Below are positions 22,653 through 64,000 of a DNA stretch of 64,000 nt, in pieces. Origin of the DNA: Rubrivivax sp. (GTDB lineage: Bacteria; Pseudomonadota; Gammaproteobacteria; Burkholderiales; Burkholderiaceae_C); NCBI GenBank assembly GCA_027487905.1, contig JAIYCR010000094.1, forward strand, positions 1-64,000, read 5' to 3'. The stretch's first letter is position 1, and every line of letters begins with the position of its first letter. A model generated the notes under the pieces. It was not told the DNA's origin. It made no database searches and saw only the letters and a program-made list of their open reading frames with translations. The position numbers and the translations under genes were made by a program.

Positions 22653-25580
<2,928 letters not shown>

Positions 25581-45907: not shown

Positions 45908-46036
45908 GCGCCCGGCGTGCGCCGCGCCATCAACCCGGCCGTCGGCGCGAGGCGCCGGCTTACCTTACCCTCGGGTGGCGCTGCGCCGGCTCCATCCCCT
46001 TCCGCCGTGCACCGCCGCCTGCCCTCTGGAGGTCCC

Positions 46037-47023
46037 ATGCGCCTGCTGAAACACCACCGATTCGATCACCCGCTGTCGTCGGAGATCACGCCCCGGGCCG
46101 TCCACCTGCGGCGGCGGGAATGGCTGGGAGGCCTGGCCGCCGGTGCGGCGGCACTGGCCCTGCCGGGCGCTTCCTTCGCCCAGGCGGCGGCCACGCCGCC
46201 GGGCAAGCTGCCCGCGCTGCCCGGCGCCCGAAGCGCGGTGCCCGGCAGCATCACGATGGAGCGGGCCACCGCCTATGCCGACATCAGCACCTACAACAAT
46301 TTCTACGAGTTCGGAACCGACAAGGCCGATCCGGCCCGCAGCGCCGGACGTCTGAAGACGCGCCCGTGGACGGTGCAGGTCGAGGGCGAGGTGGCCCGCC
46401 CGGGCACCTACGACATCGAGACGCTGCTGCGCCTGGCGCCGATGGAAGAGCGCATCTACCGCCTGCGCTGCGTGGAGGGCTGGTCCATGGTCGTGCCGTG
46501 GGTGGGCTACTCGATGGCCGAGCTGATCCGGAGGGTGGAGCCCACCGGCAATGCGCGCTTCGTCGAGTTCGTCACCCTGGCCGACCGCAGCCAGATGCCG
46601 GGCCTGTCGTCCGGCGTACTGGACTGGCCCTACCTGGAAGCCCTTCGACTGGACGAGGCGCGCCACCCGCTGACGATGCTCGCCTTCGGCCTGTACGGCG
46701 AGATCCTGCCCAACCAGAACGGTGCGCCGGTGCGCCTGGTGGTGCCCTGGAAATACGGCTTCAAGAGCGGCAAGTCCATCGTGAAGATCCGCTTCGTCGA
46801 GAAGCAGCCGCGCACCAGCTGGCAGAAGGCCATCCCGGGCGAATACGGCTTCTACAGCAACGTGAATCCGAACGTCGACCACCCACGCTGGAGCCAGGCC
46901 ACCGAGCGGCGCATCGGCGAGGACGGCCTGCTCGCCCGCAAGCGGCCCACGCTGATGTTCAACGGCTACGAGGCCCAGGTGGGGCAGCTGTACGCCGGCA
47001 TGGACCTGAAGAAGGACTTCTGA
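46037..47023 (+). CDS. msrP: Protein-methionine-sulfoxide reductase catalytic subunit MsrP
   Basis: Periplasmic molybdoenzyme that repairs oxidised methionine in envelope proteins. The 328-residue precursor has a twin-arginine signal ([20 protein letters not shown]). The molybdopterin domain carries the metal-ligand cysteine C145 in [17 protein letters not shown] and the [20 protein letters not shown] segment. A CTGGAGG ribosome site precedes the ATG. Its cofactor would be supplied by the moeA/mobA genes at 53-55 kb. msrQ follows 4 bases after the stop. Confidence 0.96.
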
Positions 47024-53261: not shown

Positions 53262-54592
<1,331 letters not shown>

Positions 54593-54596
<4 letters not shown>

Positions 54597-55279
54597 TCGC
54601 GCCGCCCGGGTGCCTCGCGCTGGAGCCGGTCCAGTTCCTCGACGGTGTTCGCGCTGCGGAAGGCAGCGGGGTCGTCCCAGCGGACGGTCACACGGCCCTG
54701 GCGCTCGAACCAGCGGTCCACCTTGCGCTCTCCCGCCTGGAGCCAGGCCAGAAGCGCCGCCGCGCAGTCGGTTCGGACCAGCGCATACACCGGTTGAGCC
54801 CGAAGCTGGCCGTCTTCGAGCGTGGCGGCCATGGCCACCGGCACGCGCTCCCGGACGGCCGCAGCGCCCAGGCGTTCGACGAGGTCGGCCGGGAAGACCG
54901 GGCCGTCGCAAGGCACGGTGACCAGCCACGGCGTCGAGCAGTGCTGCAGGCCCGCCAGCAGGCCGGCCAGCGGGCCGGGATGGTCGGGCAAGGGGTCGGG
55001 CAGCACCGGCAGGCCCAGCGCCGCATACCGCTCGTGGTTGCGGTTGGCGTTGATCAGCATCGGGCCCACCTGCGGCGCCAGGCGGTGCAGCACCGAGGCC
55101 ACCAGCGGCTGTCCGCGCCAGTTCACCAGCCCCTTGTCCACACCGCCCATGCGGCTGCCCTGTCCGCCGGCCAGCACCAGCCCGGTGACCTGCGCTCGCG
55201 CGGGACCGAGCCCCGGCGCTGCCAGGGGCTCGGCCGAGGAAGGCGACATCGGGACAGGCGGGTTCATGGCGGTGGGCAC
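54593..55279 (-). CDS. mobA: Molybdenum cofactor guanylyltransferase MobA
   Basis: Adds GMP to the molybdenum cofactor to form the guanine-dinucleotide form used by formate dehydrogenase and DMSO-reductase-type enzymes. The 228-residue protein has the GTP loop GLVLAGGQGSRMGGVDKGLV and the VTVPCDGPVFPADLV core. It is divergent from fdhD over a 73-bp gap. Confidence 0.95.
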
Positions 55280-55352
55280 GAGTCAGGGAACGCAATCGGC
55301 CTTTGAAGCGGGCCGGCAGACCCTCAGTCTAGGCAGGGCCTAAGCTTGCCCC

Positions 55353-56264
55353 ATGACGGCCACGAGTTCTGCACCCGCACCCGCACCCCCACCCGCACCC
55401 GTCCTGGCCTTCGAGGCCGTTCAAGCACCGCCCCTGGCAGCCGGTGCCCCCCGGATGACCGACTGCCCCGGCCTGCAGCTTGAATCCATCGAAGTGGTCG
55501 ACGAGACCGGCCGCGCACGCCGCATCGACATCCCGGGCGAACGTCCCTTGACGCTCTACCTGGACCGCATCGAGCTGGTGACGCTGATGACGCTGGGCGC
55601 CCAGCCCGAGCTGCTGACGCTGGGCTATCTGCTCAACCAGCGCATCGTCGACCGCATGGACGAGGTGGCGTCCATCACCGTGGATTGGTCGGTGGACAGC
55701 GCCGCGATCCGCACCCGCGGCGGCGTTCCCGACCTGGCCGAGCGGACTGGCAGCCGGGTGGTCACGACCGGTTGCGGCCAGGGCACGGTCTATGGCCAGG
55801 CCATGGCCCGGCTGGCGTCGCTTGCGCCAGCGGCGCTGCAGGTGCGCCTGCGGCAGTCCACCCTGCTCTCGATGCTCGAGCGGCTGCGGCTGCGCGACAG
55901 CGTTCACAAGCGCGCGGGTTCGGTGCACGGCTGCGCTCTCTTCGAGGAGGACCGCCTGCTCGTCTTCGTGGAGGACGTGGGACGGCACAACGCGGTGGAC
56001 ACCATCGCCGGCTGGATGGCGGTCCACGGCGTCGCGGGGGCGGACAAGGTCTTCTACACGACGGGCCGGTTGACCAGCGAGATGGTGATCAAGGCCGCGC
56101 AGATGGGCGTGTCCATCCTGGTGTCACGCAATGGCGTGACGGCCATGGGCCTGCGCATCGCGCGCGAACTGGGCATGACGCTGTTCGGGCGGGCCTTCAA
56201 CCGCCACTTCCTCTGCTACTGCGGTCGTGAACGTTTCGACGCCGCCGACCCGGCCCGGCCCTGA
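55353..56264 (+). CDS. fdhD: Formate dehydrogenase accessory sulfurtransferase FdhD
   Basis: Transfers sulfur onto the molybdenum cofactor for formate dehydrogenase. The 303-residue protein has a repeat-encoded N-terminal tail (AP-rich), LDRIELVTLMTLGAQPELLT, the sulfur-carrying segment RVVTTGCGQGTVYG (one cysteine rather than a CxxC pair), and HKRAGSVHGCALFEEDRLLV, then FVEDVGRHNAVDTIAGWM. A formate dehydrogenase structural gene is not in the window. Confidence 0.93.
   Translation: MTATSSAPAPAPPPAPVLAFEAVQAPPLAAGAPRMTDCPGLQLESIEVVDETGRARRIDIPGERPLTLYLDRIELVTLMTLGAQPELLTLGYLLNQRIVDRMDEVASITVDWSVDSAAIRTRGGVPDLAERTGSRVVTTGCGQGTVYGQAMARLASLAPAALQVRLRQSTLLSMLERLRLRDSVHKRAGSVHGCALFEEDRLLVFVEDVGRHNAVDTIAGWMAVHGVAGADKVFYTTGRLTSEMVIKAAQMGVSILVSRNGVTAMGLRIARELGMTLFGRAFNRHFLCYCGRERFDAADPARP
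55371..55400. repeat. Five tandem GCACCC-type hexamers at the fdhD 5' end
   Basis: Units GCACCC, GCACCC, GCACCC, CCACCC and GCACCC encode an Ala-Pro repeat at residues 7-16 of FdhD, only 18 bases after the start codon. Copy-number change would keep the frame. Confidence 0.88.
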
Positions 56265-56313
56265 GCGATTCAAGTCGCAGCCGACGGCGCCGAAAGCCCC
56301 CCAAGGCAGCCCC

Positions 56314-56673
56314 ATGGCAGACGAATCCCCCACACCCACCCCAGAGAACCGGCGGCACGAACGGCGGGCGCTGCGCAGCCAGGCCACGCTGCTGCTGCCC
56401 GGCGGCATGACCTTCCCGGTGCAGACGGTGGACATCAGCGTGGGCGGCGTGGGCGTGCTGGCGCCGGCCAACGCCCGCATCGGAACCCGGGTGTCGATCC
56501 GGCTGACGCTTCCGGTGCGGCCCGTGGGCACCACCACCTTCGACGCGCCGGTCACGGTGGTGCACAGCGTGCTCAGCCGCCGGGAGGAAGGCTTCAAGAT
56601 CGGCCTTCAGTTCGTCGACCTGGAGGCCCGCTCGGCATCGGCCATCCGCCACTACATCGCCATCCACAGCTAG
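56314..56673 (+). CDS. PilZ-domain protein (c-di-GMP binding)
   Basis: A 119-residue single-domain PilZ protein. The c-di-GMP motifs are RRHERRALR (R-x3-R) and DISVGGVGV (D-x-S-x-x-G), followed by the beta barrel and IGLQFVDLEARSASAIRHYI. The ATG at 56314 lies after the fdhD stop; a longer frame overlapping fdhD is unlikely. It sits inside a molybdenum-cofactor cluster, with no motility or polysaccharide genes nearby, so its partner is unclear. Confidence 0.88.
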   Translation: MADESPTPTPENRRHERRALRSQATLLLPGGMTFPVQTVDISVGGVGVLAPANARIGTRVSIRLTLPVRPVGTTTFDAPVTVVHSVLSRREEGFKIGLQFVDLEARSASAIRHYIAIHS

Positions 56674-56752
56674 GGCTGGCCCTTGCGGCGGGCGGGCTGG
56701 CCGGGCACAGGGCCGCCGATAGGGCGTTCGCTTCGCTGGCAACATCGGCGGC

Positions 56753-57910
56753 ATGCGCCCTGAAGGCATCCACCTGCACTACCGGTTCGAAGGCGACGAT
56801 GCTCCGGCAGGCGAGAGCGGCGCGACGGCGCTCGATCATCCCCTTTACCGCCTGCTCGACGCGCTCGCGCGGGAGGGCTCCGTGCAGCACGCAGCCCCGG
56901 CACTGGGCATCAGCTACCGCCACCTGTGGGGCAGCCTGCGCCAGTGGGAGGAGCGCCTGGGCGAGCCTCTGGTGCTGTGGGTGCGGGGCCAACCGGCCCG
57001 CCTGACCGAGTCGGCGCGCCAGCGGCTGGATGCGCAGCGGATGGCCTGTGCCCGCGTGGCCGCACAGGTGGATGCCATCCGTCAGGAACTGGCCGCCGCG
57101 ATGGACCTGCAAGCACCCGGCGCGGCCCCGGTGCTGCGCTTGCACGGGCCGTACGACCCGGCGCTGCTGGGCCTGAGAGCCGCGGCGGCGGCCCACGCCG
57201 GCGGCCCGGTGCTTCGCCTGCAGGCGAAGCCTGCGGAAGAGGCGATGAACACGCTGGCCCGGGGCGGCTGCGAGGCGGCGGCCTGGAGCGAAGCGGTCCA
57301 GGCCGAACCGCCGCCGCCGGGCGCCGCCCTGCCGGAGCGACAGGCCCAGCCAGACGCCGTCGAGTTGGCAGCCTGGACGCTGCTGCCCTGCCTGCGACGC
57401 AGCGTGGGGCTGATGCTCGCGCCGGGCGACACGCACACCCTGGCGGCGCTGGCCAGCGCGCAGGCGCGGCGTCTGCGCTTCGTGGGCAGCGAGACCGGTC
57501 CGCAGGCGGCGGGCGTGCTGGGGCGGGCAAGGCTCGGTCTGCACGGGATGCAGGCAAGCGATCCGGAACCCACGCCCCTGGCCGCGGCCACGGCGGTGGC
57601 GCTGGGTCGCGCCGACCTCGCCATCGGCTGGCAGGCCGTCGCCGAGCCGCTGGGCCTGCAGTTCCTGCCCCTGGAGACCGAAGACCTGTGGATCGTCTGC
57701 CGCACGGAGGGCACCGAGCCGGCGGCTCAGCGCTCGCTGTCGGCGCTGCTGCGCAGCGCCGACTGGCGGCGCCGGGTGGTGGAGATGCCAGGCTGTTCGC
57801 CCCACCCCGGCGCGGGCCAGCCGCGGCCCGGCCAGCCGCATTCCACACCCACACCCACACCCACACACCCACCGACACCCGCCCTCGCCCGGGCCCGGGT
57901 CCGAGAATGA
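56753..57910 (+). CDS. ModE-type HTH regulator fused to a substrate-binding-like domain
   Basis: A 385-residue predicted regulator. The N-terminal winged helix (LYRLLDALAREGSVQHAAPA, LGISYRHLWGSLRQWEERLG) is of the ModE/LysR type. The rest (residues about 120-340) resembles a periplasmic-binding-protein fold of the molybdate/tungstate-sensing kind (VLRLHGPYDPALLGL, LARGGCEAAAWSEAV, AVALGRADLAIGWQAVAEPL). The C-terminal 35 residues are low complexity, with Thr-Pro repeats. Genes of this design often sit by formate dehydrogenase or molybdate genes, which matches fdhD, moeA and moeB here. Its stop overlaps moeB (ATGA). Confidence 0.8.
   Translation: MRPEGIHLHYRFEGDDAPAGESGATALDHPLYRLLDALAREGSVQHAAPALGISYRHLWGSLRQWEERLGEPLVLWVRGQPARLTESARQRLDAQRMACARVAAQVDAIRQELAAAMDLQAPGAAPVLRLHGPYDPALLGLRAAAAAHAGGPVLRLQAKPAEEAMNTLARGGCEAAAWSEAVQAEPPPPGAALPERQAQPDAVELAAWTLLPCLRRSVGLMLAPGDTHTLAALASAQARRLRFVGSETGPQAAGVLGRARLGLHGMQASDPEPTPLAAATAVALGRADLAIGWQAVAEPLGLQFLPLETEDLWIVCRTEGTEPAAQRSLSALLRSADWRRRVVEMPGCSPHPGAGQPRPGQPHSTPTPTPTHPPTPALARARVRE
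57844..57866. repeat. CACACC hexamer repeats at the end of the ModE-like gene
   Basis: Nearly four copies of CACACC encode Thr-Pro repeats (STPTPTPTHPPTP) about 15 codons before the stop. This is close in sequence to the hexamers in mnmC. Confidence 0.85.
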
Positions 57911-58707
57911 ACGACGACCAGCTGCTGCGTTATTCCCGGCACATCCTGCTGGACGACATCGGCATCGACGGCCAGCAGCGCCTGCTTGCGGCGCGGGTGC
58001 TGATCATCGGCGTCGGCGGTTTGGGCTCGCCGGCCCTGCTCTACCTCGCATCGGCCGGCGTGGGCCAGATCACGCTGGTCGATCCGGACGCGGTGGACCT
58101 CACCAACCTGCAGCGGCAGATCGCGCACCGGACGTCCAGCGTGGGCCGGGCCAAGGTCGATTCCGCGCGGGAGCGCATCCACGAGCTCAATCCGGACGTG
58201 AAGGTGGAGACCGTTGCCACACGCGCCGACGCGGCCTTGCTGGACAGCCTGGTGGCCCGCTGCGACCTGGTGCTGGATTGCAGCGACAACTTCCCCACCC
58301 GGCAGGCGGTCAACGCCGCCTGCGTGCGCCATGGGCGGGCGCTGGTGAGTGGCTCGGCCATCGGCTTCGACGGGCAGGTGTCGGTGTTCCACGCGGCCGC
58401 GGGCGGCCCGTGCTATGCCTGCCTCTTTCCCGCCGACCAGGCCGTCGAGGAGGTGGCGTGCGCCAGCATGGGCGTGTTCGCCCCGTTGGTGGGCATCGTC
58501 GGCAGCGTGCAGGCAGCCGAGGCCCTGAAGCACCTGCTCGGCGCCGGGCACGGCCTGGCGGGTCGGCTGCTGATGCTGGATGCCCGCCGCATGGAATGGG
58601 ACAGCCTGACGGTGAAGCGGCGGCAGGGCTGCCCGGTGTGCGGTTCGGGCACTCGGGCAAGCCCGGGGTCGGGGTCTGGGCCAGAGCAGGACGACGGCGC
58701 CGTTTGA
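57907..58707 (+). CDS. moeB: Molybdopterin-synthase adenylyltransferase MoeB / ThiF family
   Basis: Adenylates the C-terminus of the small sulfur-carrier subunit (MoaD, or ThiS in ThiF relatives). The 266-residue protein has RYSRHILLDDIGIDGQQRLL, the ATP site VLIIGVGGLGSPALLYLASA, DLTNLQRQIAHRTSSVGRAK, and zinc cysteines at CYAC and CPVC. The last 20 residues are a low-complexity extension. The ATG overlaps the regulator stop (ATGA at 57907-57910). MoeB is favoured by the molybdenum context, although ThiF cannot be excluded. Confidence 0.92.
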   Translation: MNDDQLLRYSRHILLDDIGIDGQQRLLAARVLIIGVGGLGSPALLYLASAGVGQITLVDPDAVDLTNLQRQIAHRTSSVGRAKVDSARERIHELNPDVKVETVATRADAALLDSLVARCDLVLDCSDNFPTRQAVNAACVRHGRALVSGSAIGFDGQVSVFHAAAGGPCYACLFPADQAVEEVACASMGVFAPLVGIVGSVQAAEALKHLLGAGHGLAGRLLMLDARRMEWDSLTVKRRQGCPVCGSGTRASPGSGSGPEQDDGAV

Positions 58708-59427: not shown

Positions 59428-60684
59428 ATGCCTGCACCCTCCCGTCCTGCATCCACTCGGCCATCGCAAGCCCTGCCCGCCCGGCCCTCCCACCCAGGTC
59501 AAGCCGGCCCGTTCTGGCGCCGAGCCATCCCGATGCTCGCGGGCCTGGCCACCGCAACGTCCCTGCTGAGCGCTTGCGCGCCCAGCCAGCCGGCCGGCAG
59601 CGCCTGGCCCTCGCTGGCGAAGCCCGCACCCCTCGTACCCCCCGCCCCCACGACGCCTGCCATGCCCCAGCGCATCTTCTACTCCGGCCACAGCCTGATG
59701 GACAGGCCGCTGCCGGACCGGGTCGAGGCCATCGCACGCGGCGAAGGGCAGCCGGTGCAATGGGACCGCCAGTACCGGCTGGGCTCCTTGCTGCGGGAAC
59801 GGGCCCAGCCCGCCGCCCCAGGCCAGTCGGGATGGACGAACGGTGACAACCGCGAAGGCAGCGGCCTGGACGTGGAGGCCGCCTTGTCCGGTCGGGTGAG
59901 CGGGCTCGAGCCCTTCGACGTGCTGGTCGTCACCGAAAGGCACGACATCCTGTGGGCGATGCAGAACGAGTCGACCGCCCGCCACCTGCGGGCGATGCAC
60001 GACCAAAGGCAGCAGGGGCGCCCCCAGGGGCGGACCTGGTTCTACGAGTCCTGGCAGAGCTTCTCGCCCGAGCGCATCGCCGAATGGGCGGCCTACGAGC
60101 GGGCCGCGGCCGGGGCCTGGCAATGCGTCGCTGCCGAGGTCAACCGCTCGCTCCAGGCCGAAGGGCGCAGCGACCGCGTCCACTCGCTGCCGGCCGCCCG
60201 GGCGCTCGCACTGCTGGTCGAGCGCGCCACCTCGCCCGAGGGGCTGCCCGGTGTTTCCGCAGCGACGCCGCGGGCCACCGTCGAGCGGCTGTTCACCGAC
60301 AACGTGCACCTCACCGAGGCCGGCTTCCACTACATGGCCCTGGTCACCTGGGCCTTCGTGAACGGCAAGCCGGCCTCGGCGGACCCCGCGTCCCCGGTGC
60401 CGGCGCCAGCGGGCCTGGACCCTGCCCTGGACCGGGCGCTGCGGCTTGCGGCCGCCCAGGCGCATGCCGCGCTCCAGGGCGAGACGCTTGCCGAGGCGCC
60501 CGCCGAAGCCTGCCAGGCCCGCCTGCAGGCCTTGTGTCCGGTCGTGTGGTCCTACATGGCCACCCGGTTCCAGGCCGACGGCCAGAGCTGGCCGGGTGCA
60601 CGCTGGAAGCAGTTCAAGCTGCAGCGGCAATGCGAGGCGGGGGTGCGGGACGGGCGCCACCGCCTGGTGGCTGCAGGGCGCTGA
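59428..60684 (+). CDS. SGNH-hydrolase-like lipoprotein
   Basis: A predicted lipoprotein of 418 residues from ATG 59428; an upstream ATG at 59377 would add 17. A signal segment (WRRAIPMLAGLATATSLLSA) ends at a lipobox cysteine in LLSACAP. The body begins RIFYSGHSLMDRPLPDRVEA, like the nucleophile block of SGNH enzymes, and has a late DNVHLTEAGFHYMALVTWAF resembling block V (D-x-x-H). Between them lie DVLVVTERHDILWAM and the tail CPVVWSYMATRFQADGQSW. Esterase or envelope-modifying activity is inferred from fold only. Confidence 0.65.
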   Translation: MPAPSRPASTRPSQALPARPSHPGQAGPFWRRAIPMLAGLATATSLLSACAPSQPAGSAWPSLAKPAPLVPPAPTTPAMPQRIFYSGHSLMDRPLPDRVEAIARGEGQPVQWDRQYRLGSLLRERAQPAAPGQSGWTNGDNREGSGLDVEAALSGRVSGLEPFDVLVVTERHDILWAMQNESTARHLRAMHDQRQQGRPQGRTWFYESWQSFSPERIAEWAAYERAAAGAWQCVAAEVNRSLQAEGRSDRVHSLPAARALALLVERATSPEGLPGVSAATPRATVERLFTDNVHLTEAGFHYMALVTWAFVNGKPASADPASPVPAPAGLDPALDRALRLAAAQAHAALQGETLAEAPAEACQARLQALCPVVWSYMATRFQADGQSWPGARWKQFKLQRQCEAGVRDGRHRLVAAGR

Positions 60685-60731: not shown

Positions 60732-63700
60732 TCAGCTGATGGTCGTTTCGTCGGGGCGCGGGCGGGCCACCTCGGCCGGTGGGGATGGCGACACGGACGG
60801 CGCCGCAACGCCCGCCGCCGATGCCGCAACGCTGGGTCCATCGCCCCCGGCGGCGCTGCCGCGCGAGGCCGCCGTCGTCGCCCGCTCTGCCTCGTGGCGG
60901 GCGTGCGCCCGGCGCAGTTCCAGGCGCATGGCCTCGGCCAGCACGCTGACGTTGGGGGCCTGCAACAGGCTCGCATGCCCCCCCGGAATGTCGTGCACGA
61001 CGATGCTCTCGCGGGTGCGCGGCGCCCAGCCGAACAGCGGGTCGCTGTACTTCTCGATGTAGGGAATGTCGGCCACCGTGCCGTCGCCCTTCTGCCCCCG
61101 GAACAGCACCACCTGGCCACCCGCGAACAGGCCGGACGGGCGGTGCTGGCGATGGGCCACTTCATACAGGGGCAGGAAGTCGATGGGGGGCAGGTCGCTG
61201 AGCGGGCCGGAAACCCCGTCGCGCAAGGCCTCGACGAGCTGCTGGTTGCGCCGACGGTTCATCCGCGACTCCAGCTCCCACCGGGCCGCGTTGACCGCCT
61301 TGCGCGCCATGGTGGGCAAGGCCGCGCCGAGGCGACGGTGCACCGGCCCGTCCAGGTCGGCCGGGGTGGTCAGCGTGTCGACGAATCGGTTCAGCCGCTC
61401 GCGGGCGATGCGGAATCGCCGCTCGGCGGCGTGCACGTCGGCCGCGTCGATGATGCCCAGGAAGGCGGTGGTCTGTCCCGCGTCCTGCAGCTGGCGCGCC
61501 ATCTCGAAGGCGATGACGCCGCCCGCGCACAGGCCCGCGAGGTGATAGGGACCATCGGGCTGGACGTTGCGGATCTCCTGCACGTAGTGCGACGCCATTT
61601 CGGCGATCTGGGTGTGCACGAAGCTGCCGTCCTCGCGCTGCAGCGGCTGCAGGCCGAGGACGGGTCGCCCCGGCTCCAGGGCAAGGGCCAGCGTTCGGTA
61701 CAGCAGCGTCTCGCCGTTGCCGTCGTGAACGAAGAACAGTGGCGGCCCGTCGCCGCCCGGACGGATGGGAACGATGATGCGGCTGCCCATCGGCGAAGGC
61801 GTGCGCAGCGTCAGCGCGTTCGCCGCCGTTGCGGCTCCCGGCGCGCCGGACGCGTTGGCAGGCACGGCGCCGGCGGCGGCCAGCGCCGCGCCTTCAGGGT
61901 CGATCAGCGCGGCGAGCGTCTCCACCGTGGGCGCCTGCATCAGCGCCGTCAGCGCCAGCGGCTTGCCGGTGCGCTTGCGCAGCCGGGTGATCACCTGCAC
62001 GGCCAGCAGCGAATGCCCGCCGAGGTCGAAGAAGTTGCCGGTGGCGCTGACGCGGGGCAGTCCGAGGAGATCCGCCCACAGCTGGGCGATCAGCTTCTCC
62101 ATGGGCGTGGACGGGGCTCGCCAGCTCGGGTCGTCGCCGTCCGGAACGGACTCCGCTGCGGTCGGCGTCGCGCTCGCATCGGGTCTCAGGCGGGCCAGCA
62201 GCACGTCCAGGTCGTGCGGGGACACGGCGATCTGCGGACCGGCCTGCCAGGCGATGGCCCGTTCCAGAATCTCCAGTCCCTCCTGCGGACGGATGCCCTC
62301 CTGCAGCCCCAGCGAGAGCAGCGGATTGGCCACCGCGCGGGCCTGCGCCGGCTCCCCCGCCGGCGTCGGGGTGGCGGACAGGGACGAGAAGGACTTGTCC
62401 TGGATGCGCACCATCGCGAAGTCGACGATGTCGACCACCACCCGACCCTGCTCGTCCATCAAGGTGACGTCGTAGACGGCCACGCGGGCACTGCCCGGCA
62501 CCGCCTCGGCGCCGGCCTTCAGGCGGACATGGCTCACCAGGCGCTGGGGCAGCGGCGCCCACTGGCGCAGCAGGCCATAGGAGCCGGGCACGAAGAAGTC
62601 GCGCTCCTCGTCGAAGCCCGGCAGCAGCGATTGCGCACCGGCGGTGGCGAGGTCCAGCAGCGCCGGGTGCAGCGCGTGCTCGCGCAGATCCGCGGCGAAG
62701 GCCGGGGCCAGTTCCAGCGTCAGCAGCGCCTCGCCGGGCGCGCGGTCCAGCCGGTGCAGGTTGGCCCAGCGCGGGCCGAAGACCAGGTGGGCCGGCTGGC
62801 GCGCCGGGTCCACCGCGCCGCCTTGGGCGCAGCGCGAGCGGATGGCCGCGACGTCCACCGCCGCCCGGGCGGCCTGGGCCGAGGCGTCGGCACTGCCCAC
62901 CACGCCGCGCACGCACTCGACCCAGCCCGTGCCATCCAGCGCACGGCCCTTGACGGTGAAGGTCTGAAGCGACGCGTCCTTGCTGCCGTTGCTGCGGTCC
63001 GATCGGCCTGCCGGCTCGAAGTGCACGCGCAGATCGCGCGACACCCCGGGCGGCACCGCGAACGGCGCGAGGAAGCTCACCTCGCGAAGCTCGAGTGCAG
63101 CTCCGGCGGGCACGGTCTGCGCCCAGCCGGTGCGGACGATCTCGAGGAAGCCGGTCCCAGGGATCAAGGCCTCGCCGCCGCGCACCCGGTGCTCGGACAG
63201 CAGCCAGTGGGTGTCGATGGAGAAGGCGGTCTGGTAGACCCGCTGGCGGGCATCCGACACGAGCACATGCCCGAGCAGCGACAGGCCCAGCGGCCGGGTG
63301 CCCGGAGCGCCCGGCTCGGGCAGGCTGTCGTCGGCACTGATGCCCAGGCGCCTGGCCAGTTCGGCGGCCATGCCCACCTCGGCCCACTGCGCCCAGTCCA
63401 CTGCGATCCAGCTGCCCGCCGATCGGCGCGCGCGCGACTGCGCGAAGGCATCGAGGAAGGCATTGGCCGCCGCGTAGTCGACCTGGCCGGCCAGGCCGGC
63501 GAAGGAGGAAATGGACGAGAAGAGCACGACGAAATCCAGGCCATCGGCAAGCCCGGCTTGTCGAAGCGCCTGCTCCAGCACCAGCGTGCCCTGCACCTTG
63601 GGCGCCAGGACCGCGGCAGCGTCGCTCGCCTCCTTGAGCTGTATGGGTCCGTCCTGCAGCACACCGGCTGCATGCAGCACGCCATGGAGCCCTCCATGCA

Positions 63701-64000
63701 CCTGGACCACCTCGCGCAGCACCCGCTGCATCTGGGACAGATCGGTGATATCGGCCGCGTGCGTGCTGACCTGCACGCCCTGCGCGCGCATTGCCTGCAG
63801 TTCCTGCAGGCGGCGCGACACCGGGTCGTCGGCCGCGTGCGATTCGATCCAGCCTGCCCAGCCGGCGGGCTCGGGCAGCGCCGAGCGGCCCACGAGGGCC
63901 AGCCGTACGCCGCCCCGGTCGGCCAGCTGGCGGGCCAGTGCAAGGCCGACGCCGCCCAGGCCGCCGGTGATGAGCACGGTGCGGCCCGCGGACCACGGCG
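60732..64000 (-). CDS. Modular polyketide synthase, C-terminal part (KR-DH-carrier-thioesterase)
   Basis: An incomplete gene whose 5' part lies outside the window. Counting from 63977, a ketoreductase covers about residues 1-205 (NADPH site TGGLGGVG, catalytic SSISS and Y168 in DYAAANAF). A dehydratase-like domain covers about 225-530 (H263 in EHRVRGGEALIPGTG, then HPALLDLA). A carrier domain has its phosphopantetheine serine at S656 in LGGHSLLAVQ, and a thioesterase covers about 760-1040, with nucleophile C817 in LAGLCAGGVIAFEMA and a histidine in PGGHASLLQAP. Ketoreductase before dehydratase is not the order usual in cis-AT modules. The NRPS-like carrier motif and the Cys-type thioesterase suggest hybrid ancestry. 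The thioesterase makes this the terminal module of its pathway. Confidence 0.9.
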   Translation of the reverse strand, partial: PWSAGRTVLITGGLGGVGLALARQLADRGGVRLALVGRSALPEPAGWAGWIESHAADDPVSRRLQELQAMRAQGVQVSTHAADITDLSQMQRVLREVVQVHGGLHGVLHAAGVLQDGPIQLKEASDAAAVLAPKVQGTLVLEQALRQAGLADGLDFVVLFSSISSFAGLAGQVDYAAANAFLDAFAQSRARRSAGSWIAVDWAQWAEVGMAAELARRLGISADDSLPEPGAPGTRPLGLSLLGHVLVSDARQRVYQTAFSIDTHWLLSEHRVRGGEALIPGTGFLEIVRTGWAQTVPAGAALELREVSFLAPFAVPPGVSRDLRVHFEPAGRSDRSNGSKDASLQTFTVKGRALDGTGWVECVRGVVGSADASAQAARAAVDVAAIRSRCAQGGAVDPARQPAHLVFGPRWANLHRLDRAPGEALLTLELAPAFAADLREHALHPALLDLATAGAQSLLPGFDEERDFFVPGSYGLLRQWAPLPQRLVSHVRLKAGAEAVPGSARVAVYDVTLMDEQGRVVVDIVDFAMVRIQDKSFSSLSATPTPAGEPAQARAVANPLLSLGLQEGIRPQEGLEILERAIAWQAGPQIAVSPHDLDVLLARLRPDASATPTAAESVPDGDDPSWRAPSTPMEKLIAQLWADLLGLPRVSATGNFFDLGGHSLLAVQVITRLRKRTGKPLALTALMQAPTVETLAALIDPEGAALAAAGAVPANASGAPGAATAANALTLRTPSPMGSRIIVPIRPGGDGPPLFFVHDGNGETLLYRTLALALEPGRPVLGLQPLQREDGSFVHTQIAEMASHYVQEIRNVQPDGPYHLAGLCAGGVIAFEMARQLQDAGQTTAFLGIIDAADVHAAERRFRIARERLNRFVDTLTTPADLDGPVHRRLGAALPTMARKAVNAARWELESRMNRRRNQQLVEALRDGVSGPLSDLPPIDFLPLYEVAHRQHRPSGLFAGGQVVLFRGQKGDGTVADIPYIEKYSDPLFGWAPRTRESIVVHDIPGGHASLLQAPNVSVLAEAMRLELRRAHARHEAERATTAASRGSAAGGDGPSVAASAAGVAAPSVSPSPPAEVARPRPDETTIS

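Follow-up and report, generated by a model that had tools for sequence, protein, structure and literature searches.

The window analyzed here is a stretch of 64,000 nucleotides from the draft genome of a Rubrivivax sp. (GenBank assembly GCA_027487905.1, 115 contigs), namely positions 1-64,000 of contig JAIYCR010000094.1 (C41 below, which extends to 67164), and it ends within a type I polyketide synthase (PKS) gene encoded on the minus strand. The PKS is preceded by a gene for an enzyme of the nonribosomal peptide synthetase (NRPS) type on contig C95, and the pair belongs, almost certainly, to a conserved two-enzyme NRPS-like/T1PKS family. The linkage of this family to genes for surface glycans is well supported, and the chemistry we propose for it is inferred.

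Architecture of the Polyketide Synthase

The open reading frame runs from 63998 to 60732 on the minus strand, 1088 codons up to the window edge, and encodes ketoreductase (KR), dehydratase (DH), carrier (T) and thioesterase (TE) domains consecutively, the Pfam matches following in the order KR - PKS_DH_N - PS-DH - PP-binding - Thioesterase (Table 1). The original prediction, made from the letters of the window, had read the same KR-DH-carrier-TE order, a carrier of the GGHSL type and a TE with a cysteine nucleophile, and all three were borne out; it had not named the strand. Beyond the window, the frame continues to the contig end (C41:67163) and reaches 2143 codons, adding the C-terminal part of a ketosynthase (KS) and a cis-acyltransferase (AT; PF00698, aa 416-691 of the continued frame, E 1.1e-45). 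The ends of C41 and C95 share an overlap of 163 bases with 161 identities, and C95 provides the start of the KS; combined, the two contigs give a complete gene of about 2,275 codons with the order KS-AT-KR-DH-T-TE. The catalytic motifs are in place (KS Cys/His, AT GHSMG, KR Ser-Tyr, DH His/Asp and the carrier Ser). The protein is therefore a cis-AT module, and the KS and AT seen past the window ruled out any reading as a trans-AT line or a split module. In the KR, an Asp (VLQD in the window copy, VDD in the family consensus) occupies a position that we take to mark B-type reductases.

Ketoreductase Before Dehydratase as a Family Trait

Textbook cis-AT modules place DH before KR, which the window PKS does not. 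When the PKS was compared with plasmid records by tblastn, one place covered at least 80% of the query in 35 of the 1538 matching records, and the top alphaproteobacterial plasmid rows are co-linear with the window PKS at about 38-42% identity. A genome collection searched with an alignment (A3) of nine DH domains returned at least 586 related DH-encoding stretches, ranging from marine roseobacters to Chloroflexota and Planctomycetota, and the best 80 of these were analyzed as loci. The Asp motif of the DH was used to choose the 80 loci and is no independent test for them, the domain models that served to read their order were built from the window gene and seven plasmid relatives, and each locus stretch ends about 10 kb from the DH, so that a neighbor described below as missing is missing within that stretch.

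KR precedes DH in 78 of the 80 loci, in the window copy and in all 12 plasmid records fetched, the exceptions being a Streptomyces locus with DH-KR (L103) and a fragment without KR (L054). KR-DH is the normal architecture of this PKS family and, since 78 loci have it, no peculiarity of the window copy. Nor is it confined to the close family, because the weaker DH matches among genomes of the order (Burkholderiales) include KR-DH as well as DH-KR frames. The spacing Hx4Gx4PG is likewise general, being found in 80 of the 85 readable His motifs of the DH, the window's included. The carrier motif, which the original prediction had counted as a further anomaly, is no separate one, because the GGHSL type is common to all nine rows of a family alignment (A1). 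What remains of the proposed non-textbook assembly line is KR before DH, in a module of otherwise ordinary composition for which the searches found neither a characterized relative nor a known product, together with the Cys TE; the part that does not hold is its rarity, the order being usual in a large family. The finding that the original prediction had named as its refutation, upstream sequence with a standard module or a near match to a characterized cluster, did not turn up.

The Starter Enzyme

The NRPS-like gene (frame L008:4407-9704, with a probable start further in) stops about 100 bases before the PKS, an adjacency that depends on the overlap of C41 and C95. It encodes a formyltransferase (FT; PF00551), an adenylation (A) domain matched by PF00501 in two pieces and split by a luciferase-like monooxygenase (LLM; PF00296), and a carrier (PF00550); there is no condensation domain among the domain matches listed, and the NCBIfam match is to TIGR04020, the MupA/Atu3671 family (E 1.4e-158). 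The LLM domain matches the monooxygenase domain of PuwE (6ket, E 4.3e-122). At what we take to be the GrsA positions, the A-domain code reads D-I-L-Q-M-G-M-I-W, close to DILQLGLIW, presumably the glycine code, and seven other aligned NRPS genes keep the code positions, with changes at the fifth.

This layout recurs across the family. An LLM gene stands beside the PKS in 57 of the 80 loci, with an FT in the same frame in 53 of the 57 and a median gap of 940 bases, and several of the loci lacking it are cut by contig ends. Among 63 LLM frames, a set that takes in the window's own genome and plasmid records, the glycine-type code DILQ-x-G-M/L-I/V-W was read in 54 by text patterns (some of the nine deviating codes may be misreadings), and the FT motif N-x-H is present in 59. 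The window genome thus has the features by which the family is recognized, namely KS-AT-KR-DH-T-TE on one chain, an adjoining FT-A[LLM]-T enzyme with a glycine-type code, and a DH with Hx4Gx4PG and an HPALLD-type motif.

Variants of the starter occur. Five Acidobacteriota loci (L056, L058, L070, L072 and L084) have a short A-T starter gene, mostly with a glycine-type code and without FT or monooxygenase, and represent a natural simpler version of the assembly line. In three Anaerolineae loci (L048, L050 and L051) further NRPS genes follow the pair, although the PKS retains its TE domain, and there the line may feed a longer peptide. A few kilobases before the NRPS gene of the Rubrivivax genome, C95 4922-13710 (L040) has a lower third-position G+C and encodes a 1594-aa protein (Sacsin and NO VEIN C-terminal domains), after which comes a frame containing NERD and integrase-core domains; this stretch looks like a mobile or defense-type island.

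A Cysteine Thioesterase in One Clade

The TE motifs of 93 PKS frames comprise 79 with Ser, three with Cys and two that are unreadable, while nine frames gave no TE match. The three Cys enzymes among the 82 readable motifs are the window copy and those of the Sphingomonas loci L047 and L053, and a tree of 84 PKS proteins, calculated by a quick method with no bootstrap, groups these three as a single clade (SH-aLRT 100). The window PKS is 49% identical to that of L047. The best solved match of the window TE is Acinetobacter AB3403 (PDB 4zxh), whose nucleophile motif GWCFGG likewise has Cys, so that Cys thioesterases as such are not new; that of AB3403 operates in an NRPS context, whereas in the present PKS family Cys was seen in a single clade. 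The Cys TE, which most family members described here do not share, is a local variant, special to the window copy and its two nearest relatives.

Table 1. Features of the PKS gene and its convergent neighbor in the window (all Pfam amino acid positions refer to the frame within the window).
Feature	Position	Strand	Evidence or remark
PKS 3' part, type I KS-AT-KR-DH-T-TE	60732..64000	-	KS N-terminus on C95 (L008:9811-10368)
KR domain	63378..63980	-	KR PF08659, aa 7-207, E 4e-48
DH domain	62397..63278	-	PKS_DH_N PF21089, aa 241-332, E 1.2e-13; PS-DH PF14765, aa 383-534, E 6.1e-22
DH catalytic His codon	63191-63189	-	in HRVRGGEALIPG (Hx4Gx4P); Asp in HPALLD
Carrier domain, LGGHSL (LGGHSLLAVQ)	61902..62093	-	PP-binding PF00550, aa 636-699, E 1.9e-16
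TE, Cys nucleophile	60960..61742	-	Thioesterase PF00975, aa 753-1013, E 1.6e-28
TE Cys codon	61529-61527	-	GLCAGG motif
SGNH/GDSL-hydrolase-like protein	59428..60684	+	start codon approximate; convergent neighbor of the PKS

Proximity to Surface-Glycan Genes

In five annotated plasmids, those of Shinella, Aminobacter, Paracoccus, Ruegeria conchae and Parasedimentitalea, the pair lies near glycan genes, its neighbors encoding sugar transferases, WecB/TagA/CpsF transferases, flippases, O-antigen ligase or dTDP-rhamnose functions. The pair also occurs together with a sugar transferase and polysaccharide genes on a Deinococcus plasmid. Ruegeria sp. SCSIO 43209 has glycosyltransferases and one sugar transferase near it, and in Tateyamaria it is accompanied by exosortase genes and a WecB-type gene. 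No sugar-transferase or polysaccharide genes are annotated near the pair in a Planktothrix record, and three further plasmid records carry no annotation. Distances were tested in 39 genomes picked from the 80 loci. In 25 of the 39 genomes an initiating sugar transferase (PF02397) is no more than 30 kb away from the PKS, compared with 1.6 expected if copies were scattered at random, an expectation that ignores contig ends and relatedness (four fragment rows were dropped before the count).

A second partner is a glycosyltransferase of family 2 (GT2). A GT2 frame was found in 44 of the 80 loci with a model built partly from two of them (L047 and L113); in 41 loci no more than 100 bases separate it from the PKS frame, in 35 it stands between the PKS and the LLM gene, and in both Sphingomonas sister loci it starts where the PKS frame ends. 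A phosphopantetheinyl transferase gene is present in 36 of the 80 loci and a WecG-type gene in 26. In the window genome, the GT2 gene is not beside the PKS but on contig C12, where it adjoins a group-1 glycosyltransferase gene and is flanked by genes for a dihydrouridine synthase and an EamA transporter. Its product is 48-50% identical to the two sister GT2s, compared with 36-42% for eight other aligned GT2s.

The SGNH-Fold Neighbor

Convergent with the PKS in the window lies a gene whose product has a lipobox-like start (LLSAC, by eye), a block I motif GHSL and a block V motif D..H; it has matches neither in Pfam at 1e-4 nor in NCBIfam at 1e-3. The lipobox-like start suggests that the protein is exported. 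Relatives were found in other PKS loci by blastp and then by profile (L121, E 2e-38; L036, E 2e-36), GHSL and D..H are invariant in all 10 alignment rows, and a profile trained partly on these loci matches in 13 of the 80. The structural model (mean pLDDT 78) is closest to 4i8i, a DUF4886 protein (Z 17.8, root mean square deviation 3.0 over 214 residues), with further matches to carbohydrate esterases and to a periplasmic Salmonella lipopolysaccharide acetyltransferase domain; the modeled fold, the block I Ser and the block V Asp..His place the protein in the SGNH superfamily. The SGNH family was found in 25 of the 39 genomes, and 16 of the 39 carry a relative at most 30 kb from the PKS, compared with 0.6 expected; four of the 16 (L066, L085, L092 and L094) supplied query rows, and without them the count is 12 of 35.

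Two neighboring SGNH-profile frames occur in 10 loci (L085, L088, L092, L094, L105, L109, L116, L118, L123 and L126), in which two SGNH enzymes may act in sequence. Farther into the window, beyond the SGNH and hemerythrin genes, lie genes for molybdenum cofactor proteins (MoeA, MobA-like, FdhD and ThiF family), an LysR-type HTH protein with a PBP-like domain and a molybdopterin oxidoreductase (45917-47023 and 53262-58707). A glycine riboswitch aptamer (RF00504, 20764-20900 on the plus strand, 49.4 bits) precedes a stretch with a glycine cleavage P-protein gene at 22653-25580.

Distribution and Origin

Among 60 genomes, the window's own and 59 relatives, 10 have a PKS match at E <= 1e-20, at full length in the own genome only, and one genome of the same genus (81% complete) has none at that threshold. 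The same holds for the partners, the C12 GT2 having no match at E <= 1e-30 and the SGNH gene none at E <= 1e-6 in the 59 relatives; thus the full-length PKS, the GT2 and the SGNH gene each occur in the own genome and in 0 of 59 relatives, among which the LLM gene was not searched for. The DH profile, run over 399 genomes of the order with at most six candidates scored per genome, gave nine at E <= 1e-20, and only the own genome (2.3e-95) and one other, G291 (4.0e-47), had matches below 1e-40. A single-protein search of genome contigs confirmed none of its 29 pattern matches. Two betaproteobacterial metagenome-assembled genomes (MAGs), an Aquincola (L096) and a Hydrogenophaga (L113), have the family. 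We read this pattern as that of a sporadic, horizontally acquired system. Among the loci compared, the NRPS enzyme is closest to that of the Aquincola MAG (57.7%) and the PKS to Sphingomonas, and with such different closest relatives the two synthase genes may have been exchanged separately between lines.

Relation to Known Assembly Lines

Enediyne PksE enzymes are iterative and, like the window PKS, have KR before DH on one chain. In PksE the carrier lies between AT and KR and a phosphopantetheinyl transferase domain is terminal, whereas in the window PKS the carrier follows DH, a TE ends the chain and the line has an amino-acid starter enzyme; because of the place of the carrier and the nature of the last domain, an identification as PksE was rejected. 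The oxazolomycin and conglobatin lines begin with formyl-glycine on the same FT-A(Gly)-T starter and are longer lines that form oxazoles; here the starter has an inserted monooxygenase and is followed by one PKS module with a TE. MtaG-type A domains (myxothiazol) carry an inserted monooxygenase too, and that of MtaG hydroxylates glycine. The PuwE protein of puwainaphycin synthesis shares the luciferase-like monooxygenase with the present line, and the passages covered of one report propose that its aminotransferase and monooxygenase domains make a 3-amino-2-hydroxy acyl group (PMC4219810). Unlike in PuwE and MtaG, the monooxygenase here sits inside a glycine-type A domain accompanied by an FT and feeds a one-module PKS. 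The KR-DH pair has been called specific for the enediyne PksE (PMC9967187, in the portion consulted), which the present family contradicts as a general rule.

The family itself has been met before. Orphan NRPS-like/T1PKS hybrid clusters of unknown product have been described from Rhodobacteraceae, for example in Roseibaca domitiana V10, a cluster type present in 18 of the 37 species analyzed and of low similarity to known clusters (PMC10584327, in the passages covered). Two genes reported there (350,790-355,316 and 356,309-362,641) coincide with our locus L106, after conversion of the coordinates by hand. In the main text of that paper the words 'glycosyl', 'luciferase', 'thioesterase' and 'ketoreductase' occur 0 times, and domain order, starter chemistry, GT2, SGNH and a polysaccharide link are undescribed in its passages covered here; the window copy is further set apart by its Cys TE. 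A PKS/NRPS hybrid shared among Roseobacter relatives probably belongs to the same family, as far as the part of the report that we drew on goes (PMC10608839). The literature, mostly openly readable papers, yielded no functional study and no identified product of the family. What is new here are the partners of the line, i.e., the PF02397 sugar transferase, the GT2 and the SGNH-fold protein.

Proposed Chemistry and Alternative Readings

In the pathway we propose, the first enzyme would load glycine, as its A-domain code suggests, formylate it and, by analogy with related monooxygenases, oxidize its alpha carbon. The PKS would accept the formyl-glycine starter on its KS, add one malonyl-type unit, then reduce it by the KR and dehydrate it by the DH, and the TE would release a small acyl group. 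A formyl-glycine starter is quite probable on the evidence of the domains; an N-formyl-aminobutenoyl-type skeleton is a tentative assignment for the product. A butenolide-type lactone was considered and dropped, as the KR Asp would predict a trans double bond under the rule for B-type reductases. The acyl group would probably go to a cell-surface polysaccharide, with the dedicated GT2 and the SGNH esterase/acyltransferase-fold protein acting downstream. A functional link of the line to glycans is moderately favored by the gene proximities described above. That the window PKS is the second enzyme of a conserved NRPS-PKS line making a formyl-glycine-derived acyl group for a surface glycan is our best explanation, and we consider it evenly balanced. 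Its fullest version is possible and somewhat doubtful: the line would supply a non-sugar decoration of exopolysaccharide, an alpha-oxidized formyl-glycine butenoyl group transferred by the GT2 and edited by the SGNH lipoprotein, in a system spread horizontally across phyla, with a switch from Ser to Cys in the releasing enzyme of one clade.

Several observations weigh against attachment to a glycan or against parts of the scheme. Fourteen of the 39 genomes have no PF02397 gene within 30 kb of the PKS; Rhodobacterales make up 25 of the 39, so the counts are not independent, and outside this order the proximity holds in 6 of 14 genomes. A GT2 beside the PKS is no strict feature of the family, as 36 of the 80 loci show no GT2 frame, including all those of Chloroflexota, Planctomycetota and Acidobacteriota within the stretches of about 10 kb. 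The scan of 20 flanking proteins in the window's own genome, a set that does not include every gene of the window, recognized no polysaccharide gene; of the glycan-linked partners only the SGNH gene adjoins the pair, and the two PF02397 genes of this genome sit on other contigs (C78 and C66). No member of the SGNH family was found in 14 of the 39 genomes, one of which is that of L047, the closest relative, and a Foldseek search alone yielded nothing for the SGNH model at E <= 0.001. The extender unit, finally, is uncertain: the AT carries an unusual VAAH motif (IAAH in four relatives) that corresponds to neither HAFH nor YASH.

One rival product is a free, diffusible small molecule such as a signal, a metal binder or an antibiotic, with the glycan neighborhood reflecting shared regulation or a shared biofilm lifestyle and not chemistry. 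In its favor, release of a free acid is within the scope of the TE, recognized polysaccharide genes are not near the pair in the window's genome, and GT2 or SGNH was not found in some lineages; nevertheless we regard a free product as somewhat unlikely, since a GT2 and an SGNH gene that were not found in the 59 relatives accompany the pair in the window genome, and a GT2 directly follows the PKS in both sister loci and stands between the synthase genes in 35 of the 80 loci. The GT2 might instead glycosylate the acyl product to give an exported glycosylated metabolite or glycolipid, which the SGNH protein would trim or transfer outside the cell. One dedicated GT2 would suffice for this, it weakly matches, among other NCBIfam families, the mycofactocin glycosyltransferase MftF (6.6e-13, 48.3 bits versus a cut-off of 280), and the SGNH fold and lipobox-like start are compatible with it, but the proximity of PF02397 and the WecG-type transferases indicate polymer synthesis and make this improbable.

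Doubts about the module itself count for less. It is very improbable that the DH is inactive, or acts as an isomerase, a pyran-forming or a docking domain, leaving a beta-hydroxy acyl product: compared with the canonical Hx3Gx4P, its Hx4Gx4P motif has one extra residue, yet the active-site His and Asp are invariant in the nine rows of A1 and the DH profile matches solved dehydratase domains, best that of PksJ (8qk4, E 1.6e-30). An assembly or frame artifact behind the KR-DH order, which the division of the PKS gene over two contigs might suggest, has a negligible probability and is refuted by the recurrence of the order in other assemblies; in the window, KR, DH, T and TE share one unbroken frame within a single contig.

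Significance

As an oddity of the Rubrivivax genome, the observation is mostly ordinary, because a large family shares its domain order and carrier type; as a family, it is widespread, apparently uncharacterized and linked to glycan genes. KR before DH is a stable and widespread module order rather than a hallmark of enediynes, a point of importance for tools that use domain order to predict products. The Cys-TE clade offers a natural experiment on release chemistry. The glycan link, finally, shifts the target for chemists toward a modified surface polymer or a glycosylated small molecule, and away from a secreted antibiotic.

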